Shown piece by piece: positions 26,780 to 60,970 of a stretch of 64,000 nt of DNA (position 1 is its first letter; every line of letters starts with the position of its first letter). A program made the position numbers and the translations under genes. Source of the stretch: Bacteroidaceae bacterium (lineage in GTDB: Bacteria; Bacteroidota; Bacteroidia; Bacteroidales; Bacteroidaceae); NCBI GenBank assembly GCA_017940185.1, contig JAGAZE010000038.1, forward strand, positions 1 to 64,000, given 5' to 3'. The notes beneath the pieces are model-generated. The model searched no databases. It saw nothing but the letters and a program-made list of their open reading frames with translations, and was not told where the DNA came from.

Positions 26780-26908
26780 GTGATAATTAGAAGAAAACGA
26801 CAGAAAACCCGCTGCTTTTAATATATATTAAGAAAAACGCCTGTGCCGCCCCGCGCAAAACCTGCTGAAGCGCTGCGGTTGGATAGTGAGATAACTGTAG
26901 TTTTACAG

Positions 26909-27084
26909 TTGGGCAACAGTTGGCGTGTGATTGGGCAACAGTTGGCGTGTGATTGGGCAACAGTTGGCGCGTGATTGGGCAACAGTTGGCGTGCGATTGG
27001 GCAACAGTTGCGGTGTGATTGGGCAACAGTTGGCGTGTGATTGGGCAACAGTTGGCGTGTGATTGGGCAACAGTTGGCGTGAGG
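26909..27084 (+). repeat. 22-bp tandem repeat array B, eight units
   Basis: Units of TTGGGCAACAGTTGGCGTGT plus two bases start at 26909, 26931, 26953, 26975, 26997, 27019, 27041 and 27063. They are nearly identical, differing at one or two positions. Each unit contains the palindrome CAACAGTTG. The array lies between the tRNA terminator (27095-27129) and the efflux promoter (26772). Confidence 0.95.
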
Positions 27085-27094
27085 GTCAACTCTC

Positions 27095-27129
27095 AAAAAA
27101 AAACAAGAGTGCCGTTGTCGGTACTCTTG
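27095..27129 (-). terminator. Rho-independent terminator of the tRNA-Ser/tRNA-Glu unit
   Basis: On the minus strand, CAAGAGTACCG pairs with CGGCACTCTTG around a four-base loop (27104-27129), followed directly by nine T residues (27095-27103). Confidence 0.9.
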
Positions 27130-51606: not shown

Positions 51607-52155
51607 CAGTGCATTATTCGCCCCCCCCCCATTTATAAAATAGAAAAAAAATAATCTGGAAAAACACACCAAGAATACACCTGTAGCTCCGACTGCTCCA
51701 CGATAGCACCGTTTATTCCGTTACCATGAAACAGCCCTGCCATATCTGCCTTCTTCCTGTACCTGCTGAGCAGCATTGCGCCCGTGCTGTTTTAACATTT
51801 ATTTACCCCCCCCCCCGAATTTAAGAAATCTTAACGCAAAAACAGCCCTTTGGAGTGAGCCTATTGCTCCGAAAGGGCAGCATTGTGTCCGCATGGCAAC
51901 GCCTGCCGTGCGGGCTTTTCTGTGTGGACGTATTCGGAAAACTCTGAAAACTCCGAAAACTCCGAATACTCTGAAAACTCTGAATACTCCGAAAACTCTG
52001 AATACTCCGAAAACTCTGAATACTCCGAAAACTCTGAATACTCCGAAAACTCTGAATACTCCGAATACTCCGAATACCCCACCAACCCTTTCTTCAACCA
52101 AAGAAAGATTATATCACACAATATATATAACATATAAATCATAACTGAATATACA
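51607..52155 (+). other. Long leader with C10 and C11 tracts, hairpins and a minisatellite
   Basis: Contains C10 (51621-51630), C11 (51806-51816), a hairpin GCCCTTTGGAG/CTCCgAAAGGGC (51845-51878), a second hairpin CCGCATGGCA/TGCCGTGCGG (51889-51913) followed by GCTTTTC like an attenuator, and a 9-bp minisatellite (51938-52077). An ATG at 51726 opens a frame that at C11 stops soon after the tract (near 51821). One extra C would join it to the frame running through the minisatellite to 52144 (KTLNTP-type repeats). Whether any of this is translated is unknown. Confidence 0.6.
51938..52077 (+). repeat. 9-bp minisatellite (18-bp higher-order unit)
   Basis: About fifteen copies of aa(a/t)actc(t/c)g, mostly alternating as the 18-mer AACTCTGAATACTCCGAA. 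Frame is kept in all readings since the unit is a multiple of three; both strands stay open through it. Confidence 0.93.
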
Positions 52156-54949: not shown

Positions 54950-55408
54950 TCAGGCTTTGCTGCGGCGCACTTGGAAAAACTGCTGCATCAGCGCAGCACA
55001 TTCGTCGTGGAGCACGCCTGCCGTCACCTGTGTCTTCGGATGCAGCACGCCGTGGGTGCAGGTGGTGTAGCCCCGCTTGGGGTCGGGAGCACCATAGACG
55101 ATGCGTTTCAGCTGTGCCCATCCCAGCGCGCCGGCACACATCGGACACGGTTCCACGGTGACATATAGTGTGCAGTCGGTGAGGTATTTCCCTCCCAAAG
55201 CGCTGGCGGCTGCCGTCAGTGCCAGCATCTCGGCATGGGCAGTGACATCGCCCAGACGCTCTGTCATGTTATGCGCACGCGCAAGGATACGACCGCCGGC
55301 CACCACTATGGCACCGATGGGCACCTCGCCTTCGGCATAGGCTGCCTCGGCCTCGGCCAATGCCTTGCGCATCATGGCTTCGTCGGTCTGTCGTTGTTCT
55401 TCTGTCAT
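54950..55408 (-). CDS. tadA: tRNA-specific adenosine deaminase TadA
   Basis: A 152-residue zinc deaminase that makes inosine at the wobble base of tRNA-Arg(ACG). Zinc motifs are HAE (about 59-61) and PCPMC (about 87-91), with the catalytic Glu in HAE. Length fits the family. The ATG at 55406-55408 is chosen; an upstream extension crosses the promoter and the 46-bp repeat. Single gene, transcribed away from birA. Confidence 0.94.
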   Translation of the reverse strand: MTEEQRQTDEAMMRKALAEAEAAYAEGEVPIGAIVVAGGRILARAHNMTERLGDVTAHAEMLALTAAASALGGKYLTDCTLYVTVEPCPMCAGALGWAQLKRIVYGAPDPKRGYTTCTHGVLHPKTQVTAGVLHDECAALMQQFFQVRRSKA

Positions 55409-55464
55409 CGTATTCCCCGTTGTCGGCTGCCCATCTGTGAAAAGCGCAGCGTGGTTATGCCCTG

Positions 55465-55510
55465 CAAATATAAGCGCAATTATTGGAAGTGCCGGCAAAA
55501 GTGCCTATTT
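55465..55510. repeat. 46-bp direct repeat, left copy
   Basis: Identical to 57067-57112 (begins CAAATATAAGCGCAATTATT, ends AAGTGCCTATTT). It holds the tadA -7 box on the minus strand (TATATTTG, 55465-55472). The pair brackets the AAA ATPase gene. Confidence 0.95.
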
Positions 55511-55540
55511 AAATAAACAATGTAGATTTTCGATAAATAG

Positions 55541-55571
55541 TTTGTTGTATAAAAGATTTCGTTTAATTTTG
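55541..55571 (+). promoter_or_regulatory. Promoter of the ATPase gene
   Basis: TTTG (55541-55544), 19-base spacer, TAATTTTG (55564-55571), 43 bases before the ATG; it lies inside the inserted segment. Confidence 0.75.
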
Positions 55572-55614
55572 CAACGAAACGTTATTGCTGTAAAATTTAC
55601 AAGCGTAAAATTCT

Positions 55615-56973
55615 ATGAAAAAGTTCTATGACAGAGTGCTCGAAATGGCCGAGCTTAGGGAAATGCAACGTCAGGCGTACCACGATTATTCACGATTTGT
55701 CGTGCTTACAGGCCGTAGACGTGTGGGTAAGACAAGCCTTGTATATAGACTTATCAGTGAGACGCAGAAAGATGCCTCTGGTCTCTACTTCTTTGTTAGC
55801 AGAAAGACGGAGGCCATGCTCGTAAGAGCTTTTGCACAGGAGGTTCGCGAAAAGCTCGGGGAGTTCGTTCCTGATGGAATAAATTCGTTTCGTGAACTCT
55901 TTCAGATGATACTGGAGATTGGAAAACGTAAGAAGTTCACCCTCTTTATTGATGAGTTTCAGGAGTTTGATAATATCGATGTTGGCATCTTTAGTGACAT
56001 ACAGGAGCTATGGGACAAATACAAGAAGCTGACCAACGTTTGTCTGATAGTATCAGGCTCTATATTCCGCATGATGGAAAAGATTTTCAAAGAAGAAGAA
56101 CAACCCCTCTTTGGCAGGGATGACTGCACAATTAAGCTGAAGCCTTTCACAACGGAGACCATAAAGGAAATACTCGGTGACTACAAGCCCCAATATACTT
56201 CAGAAGATCTTCTTGCTCTTTGGACTATTACCGGTGGGGTGGCCCGATACATCGAACTCCTCATGAACAACAGATGTACAGACGTAAAAAAGATGATCCG
56301 CTACGTCTGTTCAAGCGGCGAAAGCTACTTCGTGGACGAAGGGAAAAAGATACTCATCCAGGAGTTTGGCAAGCAGTATGGCACGTATTTCAGCATTCTT
56401 GATCAGATAGCCCACGGTGATGTTACGCAAAGCGAGATAGAAGGGGCCTTGGGAATGAAAAGTCTCGGCGGACAAATGAAGTTGTTGGAAGAGAAATACG
56501 GCATTATCAAGAAGAAACGTCCGATTGGTGCTAAAGAAGGTAGCCAGACAGTGCGATATGAAATACAAGACAACTTCTTTCGTTTCTGGTTTCGCTACAT
56601 TCACAGATACGCTGCTCTTATCGAACTACAGAATATGCCTGCATTGGAGAAAATCATGACCGACGACTACACCACATTCTCTGGTATAGCCTTGGAAAGT
56701 TGGTTTCGTCAGAAGATGATGGAGAGCTGTCAATACAAGCAGATTGGCGGCTGGTGGCAACCGAATGGTGTAAACGCAAAGGGCAACAAAGATGATTTTG
56801 AGATTGATATTGTAGCCGAAACGCTTGAAGGCAACGTGGAAGTGTATGAGGTGAAGCGCAATCCCCAGAAGTACTCACCTGCCCGACTGGAAGAAAAAGT
56901 AGCAGAAATGAAGCGACGCATATTTCGTGGCAAAGAAGTAAAACAGAGGGGGCTGTCTATGGAAGATATGTAG
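55615..56973 (+). CDS. AAA ATPase with C-terminal DUF234-type domain
   Basis: A 452-residue protein of the archaeal-type ATPase_2/DUF234 family, common as accessory genes in Bacteroidetes. Walker A GRRRVGKTS (33-41), Walker B LFIDEFQEF (about 110-118), arginine-rich sensor region GSIFRMM, then a winged-helix (about 260-310) and a C-terminal region with EIDIVAE...EVYEVKR, a pattern like the PD-(D/E)xK nuclease core (Asp, then E-x-K). Composition is AT-richer than its neighbours. It has its own promoter and is bracketed by a perfect 46-bp direct repeat, so it was inserted between tadA and birA. Biological role is unknown; defence or mobile-element functions have been suggested for relatives. 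Confidence 0.85.
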   Translation: MKKFYDRVLEMAELREMQRQAYHDYSRFVVLTGRRRVGKTSLVYRLISETQKDASGLYFFVSRKTEAMLVRAFAQEVREKLGEFVPDGINSFRELFQMILEIGKRKKFTLFIDEFQEFDNIDVGIFSDIQELWDKYKKLTNVCLIVSGSIFRMMEKIFKEEEQPLFGRDDCTIKLKPFTTETIKEILGDYKPQYTSEDLLALWTITGGVARYIELLMNNRCTDVKKMIRYVCSSGESYFVDEGKKILIQEFGKQYGTYFSILDQIAHGDVTQSEIEGALGMKSLGGQMKLLEEKYGIIKKKRPIGAKEGSQTVRYEIQDNFFRFWFRYIHRYAALIELQNMPALEKIMTDDYTTFSGIALESWFRQKMMESCQYKQIGGWWQPNGVNAKGNKDDFEIDIVAETLEGNVEVYEVKRNPQKYSPARLEEKVAEMKRRIFRGKEVKQRGLSMEDM

Positions 56974-57066
56974 GAATGGGGCTTTTGGAGAGGTGCAAAG
57001 CCATATTGGTCGTGTCATTTGAAGTATGGGCTTAATCGAAGAAATAGCACACCTTGTATTTGTTGC

Positions 57067-57112
57067 CAAATATAAGCGCAATTATTGGAAGTGCCGGCAA
57101 AAGTGCCTATTT
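57067..57112. repeat. 46-bp direct repeat, right copy
   Basis: Identical to 55465-55510. This copy retains the birA promoter (-33 TTG inside it, -7 at its right edge). Confidence 0.95.
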
Positions 57113-57115
57113 TTG
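57085..57115 (+). promoter_or_regulatory. Promoter of birA-pyrH
   Basis: TTG (57085-57087), 20-base spacer, TATTTTTG (57108-57115). The -7 box spans the right edge of the 46-bp repeat; the left copy ends CTATTTAAA and has lost it. Confidence 0.75.
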
Positions 57116-57148
57116 CAATGACAACTTGTGCCCGACACTTCTGCTTTC

Positions 57149-57904
57149 ATGCCCGACGTATATTCCATACACCTTGCGGAGACCGACTCCACCAACCGCT
57201 ATCTGCTCGATGCCTATCGTGCAGCGGCTGATGATGCCCCTCTGCGAAAAGCGGAGGTTGTGGTGGTGCGTGCCGACTTCCAGACGGCCGGACGCGGACA
57301 GGGCAGCAATCGTTGGGCGAGCGAACAGGGGAAAAACCTGCTCTGCTCCATCCTCATGCAGCCAAGGGGAGTGATGGCTGCGCAGCAGTACATCCTCTCT
57401 ATGGCAGGTGCGCTCGCTCTCTTCGATGTGCTCAAACCGCTCGGCGAGGGTTTCACCCTGAAATGGCCCAACGATGTCTACTGGCACGACAGCAAACTCA
57501 GCGGCACGCTCATTGAGACGACGCTGAAGGGTAGCTGCATAGAGGCGTGCATCTTCGGCATCGGGCTCAACGTCAACCAGCAGCACTTCCCTGCCGACGT
57601 ACCCAACCCCGTCAGTCTGCGCCATATCGTAGGCGTCGATACCGATGTGTGCCACTGGCTCGACAGCATCGTGACAGCATTCCGTCAACGTATGGATGCT
57701 GTCAACAGTGGGGCTTACGCCGCCCTGCGCGCCGACTACCATGCAGCACTCTACCGCCGCACGGGCACGCATGCCTATCGCGACAGCCAAGGCATATTCC
57801 GCGCCACCATGCAGGGCGTGGCAGACGACGGACATCTGCTCCTGCGCGACACAGAAGGCACGCTGCGACGCTATGCCGTGAAAGAGGTGGAGTACATACT
57901 GTGA
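57149..57904 (+). CDS. birA: Biotin--[acetyl-CoA-carboxylase] ligase BirA
   Basis: A 251-residue enzyme that activates biotin to biotinyl-AMP and attaches it to carboxylase carrier proteins. TDSTNRYLL near the start, the nucleotide loop TAGRGQGSNRW (about 47-57), KWPNDVYW (about 109-116), and the GIGLNVN segment are family marks. The N-terminal DNA-binding domain of E. coli BirA is absent, so it is a monofunctional (class I) ligase. An in-frame GTG at 57128 could add seven residues; I prefer the ATG at 57149. It precedes pyrH by 31 bases. Confidence 0.93.
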   Translation: MPDVYSIHLAETDSTNRYLLDAYRAAADDAPLRKAEVVVVRADFQTAGRGQGSNRWASEQGKNLLCSILMQPRGVMAAQQYILSMAGALALFDVLKPLGEGFTLKWPNDVYWHDSKLSGTLIETTLKGSCIEACIFGIGLNVNQQHFPADVPNPVSLRHIVGVDTDVCHWLDSIVTAFRQRMDAVNSGAYAALRADYHAALYRRTGTHAYRDSQGIFRATMQGVADDGHLLLRDTEGTLRRYAVKEVEYIL

Positions 57905-57935
57905 TAGAGTAATCAACAACAAACACACAATACTC

Positions 57936-58646
57936 ATGAAACGTTTCAACCGAATACTTCTCAAGCTCAGCGGCGAGAGCCTGATGGGCGCTCAGGGCTA
58001 CGGCATCGACAGCGGACGGCTGGCCGATTATGCCCGACAGATAAAAGACATTCACACCATGGGCGTGCAGATAGGCATCGTCATCGGCGGCGGCAACATC
58101 TTCCGCGGCATGAGCGGCGCAGCCAAAGGCTTCGACCGCGTGAAGGGCGACCAGATGGGCATGCTCGCCACCGTTATCAACTCCCTCGCATTATGTTCAG
58201 CCCTCAAGGCTGAGGGCGTGCCCAGTCAGGTGCTCACCGCCATACGCATGGAGCCCATAGGTGAGTTCTACAGCAAGGACCGCGCCCTCGAGGCCCTCGA
58301 GGCCGGCAAGGTGTGCATCTTCTCCGGTGGCACGGGCTCACCCTATTTCACCACCGACACGGGCTCCTCGCTGCGCGGCATCGAGATAGAGGCCGACGTG
58401 ATGCTGAAAGGCACACGCGTCGACGGCATCTACACTGCCGACCCGGAGAAAGACCCCACGGCGGTGAAGTTCGACGAGATAAGCTACGACGAAGTGCTCG
58501 CACGCGGACTCAAGGTGATGGATCTCACCGCCGTGGTGATGTGCAAGGAAAACGGCTTGCCCATCTATGTCTTCAACATGGATCGGTTCGGCAACCTCCG
58601 CCGTGTGATGGAAGGCGACAACATCGGCACCCTCGTGCATCCGTAA
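57936..58646 (+). CDS. pyrH: Uridylate kinase PyrH (UMP kinase)
   Basis: A 236-residue amino-acid-kinase-fold UMP kinase making UDP. Signatures: RILLKLSGESLMG (5-17), VIGGGNIFRG (about 50-59), GTGSPYFTTDTGSSLR (about 130-145), and KGTRVDGIYTADPEKDP (about 153-169), all typical of bacterial PyrH. Length is standard. Second gene of the birA-pyrH unit. No terminator is obvious before the convergent restriction-gene remnant 36 bases on. Confidence 0.97.
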   Translation: MKRFNRILLKLSGESLMGAQGYGIDSGRLADYARQIKDIHTMGVQIGIVIGGGNIFRGMSGAAKGFDRVKGDQMGMLATVINSLALCSALKAEGVPSQVLTAIRMEPIGEFYSKDRALEALEAGKVCIFSGGTGSPYFTTDTGSSLRGIEIEADVMLKGTRVDGIYTADPEKDPTAVKFDEISYDEVLARGLKVMDLTAVVMCKENGLPIYVFNMDRFGNLRRVMEGDNIGTLVHP

Positions 58647-58681: not shown

Positions 58682-59125
58682 CTACACAAACAACTGTCCT
58701 GTGGCTGCGGATAGTGACACTTTGCAATATCGGGCAATATCGGCGAGGGTGGCACCATTGCCCGCCAAGCCATAGAAGTTGTCCTCGCTCACGAGCACGT
58801 ACTCCCATTCGCGTCCCATTCGCTGTATGGGCTTCAGTTCGTTGACCTTACTCGTCCATTCCACCGCCGCGGTCTGCTTCTGCCGCACATTCCTGTCTTG
58901 TATTTTGTCGTTGCCTTTCGTCTCTATCAGATACACTTTCTCCTTGGTTGCGACAATAAAGTCGGGATGATAGGTGGCCATGAGTCCGTCGCTGCGCATG
59001 TAGTAGATGACAGCAAACGGGTGCATATTCTCGCTGATTTTCAAGAAGCGTTCCACCGCTCCGTCTTTGTCCAGAAATTCTATGAACGCCCTTTCCAATC
59101 CTCCGCCCTGCGTGGGATAGCCTCC
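58682..59125 (-). pseudogene. C-terminal remnant of a type III restriction enzyme (Res) subunit
   Basis: About 148 codons without an ATG start: the frame begins after an in-frame TGA at 59126-59128, inside the inverted-repeat element. The sequence (GGGLERAFIEFLDKDGAVERF, then SDGLMATYHPDFIV, VYLIETKGNDK and ...NVRQKQTAAVEW) matches the C-terminal nuclease part of type III restriction/helicase (Res) subunits; PD...IETKG is the PD-(D/E)xK active site. The helicase part and the modification gene are missing. The 5' break coincides with the inverted-repeat arm at 59112, so the element's insertion or an associated rearrangement probably truncated it. The stop codon and the 3' end look intact. Confidence 0.75.
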
Positions 59126-59252: not shown

Positions 59253-59321
59253 CATCTACGACAAACGATGGGGTCTTGGCAGGAAACAGCGCAGCGCAAG
59301 TGTAGCCCAATTGCAGTGTGA

Positions 59322-59431
59322 TTGGGCTTTACTTGCATTGCAATTGGGCTTTACTTGGGTTGTGATTGGGCAACACTTGCATTGCAATCGGGCAATACTT
59401 GGAGCGTGATCAGGCAATACTTGCCAAGAAG
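59322..59431 (+). repeat. 22-bp tandem repeat array C, five units
   Basis: Unit starts at 59322, 59344, 59366, 59388 and 59410 (TTGGGCTTTACTTGCATTGC and variants TTGGGCAACACTTGC, TCGGGCAATACTTGG). It lies in the interior of the inverted-repeat element. Units are more diverged than in array B. Confidence 0.88.
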
Positions 59432-59569
59432 GCCCTCAACACTGGGAGCGCAGACGCCCTCGATAGCACTCGTATCACTATTGCGCCATCTGCTTCGCAA
59501 GCCGATGAACGTATCCTCTTCGCCTTTCTCTTCGGCTGGTGTCCTTCGGTTCCTCTCTTCCCTTATTGG

Positions 59570-59709
59570 TGCAGGCAGTGTAAGCGGGTGTAAGCAAAAA
59601 AAACTCGCTTACACCTCGCAGCAACTTGAAGGTCAGGCCGTTATCGCGTTTGGTGCAAGCGTGCAGGCAAAATGGCAATTCTGATAGAAGAGTGAGGAGG
59701 CTATCCCAC
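59570..59709. repeat. Inverted-repeat arm, right
   Basis: Reverse complement of the left arm. It ends in CTATCCCAC, which is also the last nine bases (stop included) of the adjoining DUF4834 fragment. It includes the hairpin TGTAAGCAAAAAAAACTCGCTTACA. Confidence 0.9.
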
Positions 59710-59786
59710 CTCTTCGAAGTCGACATATTCCCCCTCGTCGGTCACGTCGTCGGTCTGCTGCGCTGTGGAAGTGGTGTCTGTGCGTG
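59701..59786 (-). pseudogene. Duplicated 3' end of the DUF4834 gene
   Basis: Reading on the minus strand, it ends in ...AQQTDDVTDEGEYVDFEEVG-stop, versus ...AQQTDDVANEGEYVDFEEVG-stop in the intact gene at 60716-60970. The first ~65 bases have three mismatches to the intact gene; similarity then fades. No upstream part remains. It is a diverged allele fragment on the far side of the HEPN-nucleotidyltransferase pair. Confidence 0.85.
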
Positions 59787-59796
59787 TGTTGTGTTG

Positions 59797-60222
59797 CTAT
59801 GGTTTTAAGGGGGTATACATCCCTTTGTTTTTTATATATCGTTTGATTTTCTCAATAAGTTGTCGGGCTGGTTCTATACGCGAGCGGATTTCTTCTTCCG
59901 AAACGTCATAAGAACAATTGTAGTCAGCGTTCTCGCGCATGGTTTGCATCTGCGCATAGAAGCGTCCATCCTCCACTGGAAACAGTTCCGTTTTCACGAA
60001 ATACTGTTGAAAACGTATAACTGCACCTTTGTGGGTTCCTACTTCATGTCCCTCGCTGATAAGCAAAGCACTCACTGCATGGAAAAGAGCATAGTAAAGA
60101 CGATTGGCCAACGTGTTCCACAAACCGGCCTTGCACAACACGGACTGTTCGGCAAAGGTATGTTCTGCCTTTTCCATTTCCATCTCTATGATAATCCGTC
60201 TATCCTCTTCCTTAAGACTCAT
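59797..60222 (-). CDS. HEPN-domain protein (probable HepT-type toxin)
   Basis: A 141-residue helical protein of the HEPN family (PF05168 type): ANRLYYALFHAVSALLISEG (about 36-55), HKGAVIRFQQYFVK (about 64-77) and a RENADYNCSY segment (about 95-104) where HEPN RNases carry Arg-x4-6-His. Here the expected His is replaced (Arg...Tyr), so RNase activity is uncertain. It overlaps the nucleotidyltransferase gene by 11 bases. Such pairs act as toxin-antitoxin modules in which the nucleotidyltransferase modifies the HEPN protein. AT-rich compared with neighbours. Confidence 0.83.
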   Translation of the reverse strand: MSLKEEDRRIIIEMEMEKAEHTFAEQSVLCKAGLWNTLANRLYYALFHAVSALLISEGHEVGTHKGAVIRFQQYFVKTELFPVEDGRFYAQMQTMRENADYNCSYDVSEEEIRSRIEPARQLIEKIKRYIKNKGMYTPLKP

Positions 60223-60535
60223 AAATCAATTTCTTGTCTTTTTCAACATTAAAGTAAAACATCGAATGAGGAGTGTTATACCACTCTTCCTTGGTGTAGG
60301 TATGAATGCTGAAGTATTGCCACAAATCAAATCCCCGTTCCATAATTGGATAGGCATAGTTGGCAAAATCTGATACTTCTCTTCTTGGCTTGTCAAGGAG
60401 CAATAGCAAATCCCAGTCGGAGTCTTCATGATGGTCGCCACGTGCCCGAGAGCCATAGAGATAAAGACTACTTCCCTTTGGCAGCACGTTGTGTGCCGCT
60501 TGCCTGATGCTGTCTATAATCTTACCCACTTCCAT
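60212..60535 (-). CDS. Minimal nucleotidyltransferase (MntA-type antitoxin)
   Basis: A 107-residue protein with the nucleotidyltransferase signature YGSRARGDHHEDSDWDLL (about 27-44), giving GSR and the two metal-binding Asp residues. Minimal nucleotidyltransferases paired with HEPN proteins transfer AMP to the toxin and neutralise it. First gene of the pair (antitoxin first), overlapping the next by 11 bases. I see no good consensus promoter in the 180 AT-rich bases upstream. Confidence 0.87.
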   Translation of the reverse strand: MEVGKIIDSIRQAAHNVLPKGSSLYLYGSRARGDHHEDSDWDLLLLLDKPRREVSDFANYAYPIMERGFDLWQYFSIHTYTKEEWYNTPHSMFYFNVEKDKKLIYES

Positions 60536-60715: not shown

Positions 60716-60970
60716 CTATCCCACCTCTTCGAAGTCGACATATTCCCCCTCGTTGGCCACGTCGTCGGTCTGCTGTGCTGAAGTCGTTGTGCTTGTTCGT
60801 GATGTGCGTTGCTGTCGGCGTTGCTGTTGAGGCGAGGCTTCGCTACGGCGACCGAGGCGTTCGAGTTGCTGCTTTGTGCGCCGCACCCACCACAACGCTG
60901 CCGCTGCCAAGAGGAAGACAAGCAGGATGATGAAGAAGACGATGCTGGCTAAAAATTTGAGGATGAACAT
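60716..60970 (-). CDS. DUF4834 family small membrane protein
   Basis: An 84-residue protein: one transmembrane segment (about 5-28, FLASIVFFIILLVFLLAAAALWW), a basic stretch (about 29-62) with many Gln/Arg/Ser/Thr residues, and an acidic C-terminus NEGEYVDFEEVG. It is a conserved Bacteroidales small protein of unknown function, here following pssA by 21 bases. Its 3' end exists a second time at 59701-59786. Confidence 0.8.
   Translation of the reverse strand: MFILKFLASIVFFIILLVFLLAAAALWWVRRTKQQLERLGRRSEASPQQQRRQQRTSRTSTTTSAQQTDDVANEGEYVDFEEVG

Follow-up and report, generated by a model that had tools for sequence, protein, structure and literature searches.

In the window, i.e., the whole 64,000-nt stretch of Bacteroidaceae DNA analyzed here, a gene for an ATPase_2/DUF234 protein together with its own promoter has, at a probability we put at about 0.8, been inserted between tadA and birA with a duplication of 46 bp of the target, making the locus an example of "insertion with long target duplication". 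This event type was reportedly described for restriction–modification (R–M) genes by Nobusato, Uchiyama, Ohashi and Kobayashi in 2000 (Gene 259:99). The features by which it is recognized were found here: a host-derived repeat on both sides, a one-copy empty site, a duplication of variable length (39–282 bp), and an insert free of transposase. R–M cargo, associated with such events in print without defining them, is absent, the cargo being ATPase_2/DUF234.

The direct repeat (46/46 nt, 100% identical) occupies positions 55465–55510 and 57067–57112 at a spacing of 1602 nt; its outer limits are exactly those given in the earlier note on this DNA, which had also described it as perfect. No further copy with up to three mismatches was detected window-wide (shuffles expect 0), and in the parent genome (52 contigs, 89% completeness) the segment 55440–57140 matches one place only, the ATPase protein likewise being found once. 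The 1556 nt between the copies (55511–57066, plus strand) are absent from the syntenic stretch of the related genome G005 and contain a single ORF of note, the 452-aa ATPase_2/DUF234 gene (55615–56973, plus strand). It is preceded by a −7 promoter box TAATTTTG (55564–55571, plus strand), read from the sequence by the familiar −7 consensus, TAnnTTTG, and by two partial 15-nt-period, operator-like repeat units (55588–55613, plus strand; GTAAAAT at 55590 and 55605). Among close homologs, this upstream region is alignable to about −100. Downstream, 93 nt of filler (56974–57066) separate the stop codon from the right copy and have nothing in common with the other close-clade loci past the stop (best match 11 nt).

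The insert is flanked by tadA (tRNA adenosine deaminase, 54950–55408, minus strand) and birA (biotin ligase, 57128–57904, plus strand). The −7 box of tadA, TATATTTG, was read on the minus strand at 55465–55472, inside the left copy, and that of birA, TATTTTTG, at 57108–57115, where the right copy and the three bases next to it complete the box. The claim that neither flanking promoter was lost is upheld by this reading. The last three bases of the birA box lie outside the repeat, and the right copy alone completes it. The tadA ORF as listed from the TTG at 55498 overlaps the left copy; the ATG at 55408 (our own reading) is the likelier start, which makes the 46-bp repeat intergenic.

The empty site was found in G005, the genome nearest by BirA (77%) among the matches listed. 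There, tadA adjoins birA, and only one stretch is homologous to the 46 bp. The window aligns to G005 on the tadA side through the left copy and on the birA side through the right copy, the two BLAST blocks (54970–55510 and 57067–58645) overlapping on G005 by exactly 46 nt. Since G005 keeps one copy and the aligned blocks overlap by exactly this length, the repeat is confirmed as a target duplication around one inserted gene, as proposed initially. The duplication therefore arrived together with the inserted gene, and both promoters stayed usable; neither neighboring gene was harmed, because the insertion duplicated 46 bases of the host DNA that it entered. BirA is present in 59 of 60 genomes, and the matches listed comprise 30 loci, 29 of them beyond that of the window; the ATPase was found at none of these 29 birA loci (58 other genomes have BirA), and tadA was present in 21 of the 29 stretches. 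One-copy sites are in hand for the two cases of the window only (the ATPase and the HEPN/MNT pair described below). For the locus in G091, a search for the empty site through the right neighbor (protein in 26/60 genomes) returned distant homologs only, the best foreign match being 68% over partial length.

The second case in the window is a toxin–antitoxin-like HEPN/MNT pair (59797–60535, minus strand; HEPN at 59797–60222, nucleotidyltransferase at 60212–60535) located between two copies of the 3′ end of a DUF4834 gene (98 nt, 85% identity). The left copy lies at 59701–59798, and the right one (60716–60813, minus strand) coincides with the 3′ end of the gene itself, which is intact (60716–60970). 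Between the aligned blocks at this site, there are 453 nt in G005 vs. 2371 nt in the window, and no HEPN match was found in the G005 genome. The earlier suggestion of a common way of insertion at the two sites is borne out by this arrangement. As separate observations, a short ORF by pyrH (58682–59098, minus strand), perhaps a restriction-gene remnant, has a weak RE_endonuc/TnsA-like match (E 8e-4, below the cut-off) and is unmatched in the syntenic part of G005. The window also harbors 22-nt repeats arrayed at three places (26865–27125, 419–660, and 59300–59450), their units being TTGGGCAACAGTTG-like or complementary, and an array of 9-nt repeats (AACTCCGAA/TACTCTGAA) of about 200 nt at 51904–52110.

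The 452-aa protein matches the Pfam families PF01637 (ATPase_2; 6.7e-18, 65.8 bits vs. a gathering threshold of 33.2) and PF03008 (DUF234; 1.6e-7, 32.1 bits vs. 22.5), and the PADLOC profile PDC-S27 spans its residues 3–433 at 6.1e-47. It possesses a Walker A motif (GRRRVGKT), a Walker B motif (FIDEFQ), and a C-terminal PD-(D/E)XK-like motif (EIDIVA...EVKR), in which the pattern D...(E/D)-x-K is represented by D398, E412, and K414; K39, D113, E114, D398, and K414 are invariant across 23 sequences, and E412 is replaced by D in one. DUF234 is presumably of the PD-(D/E)XK nuclease fold. The dN/dS ratio is 0.04–0.06 in 15 of 16 gene pairs, the pair with L138 being saturated. Because the motifs are near-invariant and the dN/dS ratio is this low, the protein is, to judge by its sequence, a working ATPase with a nuclease-like part under strong selection. 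Its most likely role would be that of a nuclease gated by ATP, serving either in defence against phage or as a toxin-like addiction module. The solved relatives 2fna and 2qen resemble it in the profile-matched ATPase part, their chains matching only the profile positions 87–210 and 4–184, respectively; the C-terminal nuclease-like part had no solved match at E 0.01. The profile of PDC-S27, itself only a candidate phage-defence system, is common with the window ATPase. The protein of the window and that of locus L123 are 92% identical at a dS of about 1; the identity reflects constraint, given this dS, and is weakened as a sign of recent transfer.

A further observation concerns the leader of DUF234 genes, where tandem repeats with a period of exactly 15 nt occur between the −7 box and the ATG (window, 55588–55613; L062–L200). 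At a lag of 15, a score of 10/12 matches or better was found in 23/54 close and 36/68 distant genes as compared with 7/548 control ORFs, other lags yielding at most three in either DUF234 set; the sets contain related sequences, so these counts are not independent. Under a stricter rule, 9/54 close and 22/68 distant genes were retained, all with period 15, along with 11/548 controls of mixed period. The level of 10/12 at lag 15 was also reached by two of five plasmid homologs. Often palindromic and different from one subfamily to the next, the repeat units suggest a putative operator changing together with the protein.

Homologs of the ATPase are widespread: they were found in 120/398 genomes of the genus (E up to 1e-20) and in 71/301 genomes of the family, representing 16 of 30 genera (E up to 1e-60). 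From the genome-collection scan, the best 80 of 101 matches were kept, giving 79 loci in records titled Prevotella, Xylanibacter, Muribaculaceae, Paludibacteraceae, Salinivirgaceae, and others. Flanking repeats were sought within 700 nt on either side of the gene at a score of at least 20. The added families were represented by 30 loci each among the matches listed, the main ORF being found in 29 DUF4143, 29 PDDEXK_9, 23 HEPN, 25 Fic, 28 BirA, and 29 C5-methylase loci. The same-site loci L142, L147, L162, and L163 were dropped before counting, as were loci with a flank shorter than 250 nt (3/52 close DUF234, 3/68 distant DUF234, 25/29 PDDEXK_9, and 1/25 Fic). In the genus searches, PDDEXK_9 matches numbered up to 44 in the genome G096, and DUF4143 matches numbered 35 in G069.

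Local direct repeats of 39–282 bp flanked the gene at 16 of the 49 testable loci of the close DUF234 clade (15/48 without the window), so repeats of local sequence also flank other DUF234 ATPase genes, a point that the earlier note had proposed to check; at the other 33, no repeat reached the threshold. The cross-locus null gave 1/392 in this clade and 0 in the other families. Flanking repeats were also recorded for distant DUF234 (10/65), HEPN (4/23, the DUF4834 case included), Fic (5/24), DUF4143 (2/29), and PDDEXK_9 (1/4 testable; 3/19 under a looser test), BirA yielding 0/28. Among control ORFs of at least 150 aa beside DUF234 genes, 21/466 were positive. One-sided Fisher tests against this control (six comparisons, uncorrected) gave p = 1.2e-8 for close DUF234, 0.0021 for distant DUF234, 0.006 for Fic, 0.024 for HEPN, 0.4 for DUF4143, and 1 for BirA. 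Earlier, looser runs had given 6/169 and 13/479 for neighboring ORFs and 10/60 for the fetched DUF234 loci (score of at least 19). A second run at 700 nt returned 0/29 for C5-methylases, 0/25 for the flavodoxin-like neighbors taken from the G091 search, and 1/184 for the HEPN null; at 1400 nt, the counts were 2/29 for C5-methylase, 5/23 for HEPN, 6/24 for Fic, and 1/28 for BirA. An excess of repeats at R–M genes was not seen among the C5-methylase loci of the genus at either distance, because their 2/29 at 1400 nt stands beside the 1/28 of BirA.

Many of the repeat-positive control ORFs are themselves of defence, toxin, or mobile type (repeat-positive ORFs alone were annotated). Seventeen of the 21 were submitted to Pfam with their first 220 aa or less; the matches comprised two HipA N-terminal domains, one DUF3990, one DUF1016, one AAA_14 with a weak DUF4143, one further AAA_14, two ATPase_2 (one being the second gene of L157), one DUF6922, one IS110, one Y1 transposase, one protein kinase, one amidase_2, one AAT, and one HATPase_c_2 below the cut-off, two ORFs being unmatched. 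None of the 16 close-clade repeat sequences recurred in an unrelated locus of the data set (at 60% of length and 75% identity), which disposes of a dispersed repeat family as far as these loci go. Hairpins as a general cause were likewise rejected, 3/15 duplicated sequences folding at z below −2 vs. 9% of 33 controls. Searches of other kinds of records led no further: eight phage records matched (best rows about 25% identity), as did 153 plasmid records (all below 60%, best row 46.9%), and none were confirmed in IMG/VR. In the five plasmid records that were read out of the 153, no flanking repeat was present.

The duplicated sequences may comprise pieces of host genes, e.g., the first 44 nt of the next ORF in L180, the end of the next ORF in L186, and the start of a polysaccharide deacetylase ORF in L161; by our own reading, the L114 repeat reads like a gene end with its terminator. 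The repeat unit of L148 has a short motif in common with the sequence upstream of the L127 gene. At L157 (3830–7064), a single target received two different DUF234-family ATPase genes, one after the other; their duplications, of 122 and 101 bp, overlap without being the same. L130/L132, the pair that moved most recently (99.7% nt identity), occupies different sites and has a common stretch only from about −54 to +46, the L132 gene being flanked by a 19-bp repeat and the L130 gene lacking one; in L129/L131 (95.6% nt, dS 0.21), the common sequence extends only from −93 to +4. Overall, in pairs at different sites, the common sequence runs from about −100, or less, up to the stop codon, and no conserved sequence was found past the stop codon among the moved genes. 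The ends of the moved piece vary: the left copy stops 49–320 nt before the ATG, and the right copy begins 6–500 nt past the stop. At the window locus, L123, L153, L157, and L158, the common upstream sequence stops within 0–1 nt of the left copy, hence the left junction is clean there. These junctions speak against variable ends, as do a left limit near −100 that recurs at several sites and the short common span of L129/L131. At a dS of about 1, however, this limit may equally be the end of functional conservation, and a defined left end at this position is weakened as a candidate.

One same-site pair calls for caution. The genes of L141 and L142 are 98.7% identical at the nt level and occupy the same site, where L141 has two copies and L142 one; the sequence concerned, a 47-nt hairpin-forming one, occurs twice around the L141 ATPase and once at L142. 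L141 is doubtful as a target duplication, and some repeats may be of other origin, because L142 lacks the second copy at the same site. A relative with the ATPase in place and no repeats, named in the earlier note as evidence against its reading, was thus encountered in part at this other locus, and no gene-bearing tadA–birA relative was found among the 29 other birA loci listed.

For the window, the preferred course of events, insertion with long target duplication, may be pictured as follows. A short DNA fragment carrying the ATPase gene and its promoter entered between tadA and birA, and 46 bp of the target were duplicated along with it, as the one-copy empty site shows; the ends of the fragment were presumably not set by the gene. 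They could have been joined to the target through a pair of breaks lying far apart, or through a template switch during replication or repair, which would leave the stretch of target between the joints on both sides. Insertions leaving both neighbors intact would survive. In this manner, small defence- or toxin-type modules without a transposase may enter compact genomes with long, variable duplications, and sites without a repeat may represent deletions, very short duplications, or old decayed events. The pattern fits variable breakpoints and the survival of harmless insertions. The target duplication, the intact promoters, and the DUF4834 parallel of the initial interpretation are retained, and its special device for placing cargo so as to spare host genes is not, the repeat being missing at 33/49 sites and the event being of a published kind.

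An alternative, which we hold to be unlikely, is a self-mobilizing single-gene element, whose ATPase–nuclease would nick the target at two distant points and insert its own gene. The (near-)invariant ATPase and PD-(D/E)XK-like motifs speak for it, as do the recurring left limit, the double insertion of L157, the repeat rate of the close DUF234 clade, which is the highest among the tested families, and the positives among related AAA–nuclease genes (DUF4143 and PDDEXK_9). Against it, HEPN and Fic show the pattern without such a protein, DUF4143 is not above the neighbor control, and conserved sequence beyond the stop codon is lacking. The like behavior of the HEPN and Fic modules also speaks against an ATPase that drives its own movement. 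Joining by the repair or replication machinery of the host is likelier. An extended version, in which the DUF234 ATPase–nuclease would bind the 15-nt-period operator, cut the target twice tens to hundreds of bp apart, copy its own gene in, and move HEPN/MNT and Fic in trans as a transposase-free mobile class, seems quite improbable.

Just as improbable in our estimate is a Campbell-type integration, by homologous or site-specific recombination, of a circle already carrying the 46 bp of tadA–birA sequence. Direct repeats around the gene are what a single crossover leaves, and the copies at some loci have diverged as if derived from a donor (8/105 nt in L114, about 10% in L122, and 15% in the HEPN case), but the repeat sequence changes from site to site, the copies are 100% identical in the window, L123, L127, and L141, and the segment is free of recombinase. 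An integrase-dependent island, characterized by a recombinase and an att core common across sites, is not what was observed. Also very unlikely is a conventional transposon insertion, driven by an enzyme acting in trans, whose target duplication happened to be unusually long: the duplication is real and some neighbors are transposase genes, but the ends of the insert bear no terminal inverted repeats (the sole inverted pair detected lies elsewhere), and a length of 39–282 bp among close homologs is unlike a single transposase. By the ORF list and Pfam profiles, the insert encodes no transposase, integrase, or other recombinase, and the hallmarks of a DDE or other insertion sequence (transposase, terminal inverted repeats, and short fixed duplication) were not found. 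An artefact of metagenome assembly is scarcely credible, even if the window comes from a fragmented genome and the record titles of most homologs say MAG or uncultured, given the 58-bp perfect case (L127) in the Xylanibacter ruminicola Ga6B6 record, which is not titled MAG, the L161–L163 case in three genomes, each keeping both slightly diverged copies, and the agreement of both window flanks with G005.

According to passages of two papers, it was from R–M genes of Helicobacter that insertion with long target duplication was first put forward, in 2000 (PMC3031569, PMC1643837), the pattern being frequently associated with such genes in H. pylori (PMC1643837). As far as described in these passages, the Helicobacter insertions resemble the present ones in being small transposase-free modules with long, variable duplications and nuclease- or addiction-type cargo, found by comparing related genomes; here, by contrast, the cargo is a single ATPase–nuclease gene without a methylase, the host belongs to Bacteroidales, and many sites of one family are involved. 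A partial eukaryotic parallel is given by the transposed genes of Arabidopsis: in the portion of the report drawn on here, non-transposon genes at new sites lie between direct repeats more commonly than unmoved genes, and a relative often has the repeat sequence at its orthologous site (PMC2869330). The likeness lies in non-transposon genes occupying new sites with flanking direct repeats, whereas the repeats in Arabidopsis, a eukaryote, are often genic or derived from tandem arrays (PMC2869330, same portion). In the open-licence literature, no description of long target duplication in Prevotella and none of DUF234 mobility was found. Overall, the event type is already known, and the cargo and the phylum are new.

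The many sites with local repeats of 39–282 bp, the nested double insertion of L157, and the recent mover L130/L132 make the mechanism testable by comparison. The findings suggest that, in gut Bacteroidales, some of the cargo of defence or toxin type spreads gene by gene without a transposase. If the self-mobilizing reading were true, these genes would represent a class of transposase-free mobile elements spreading defence genes.
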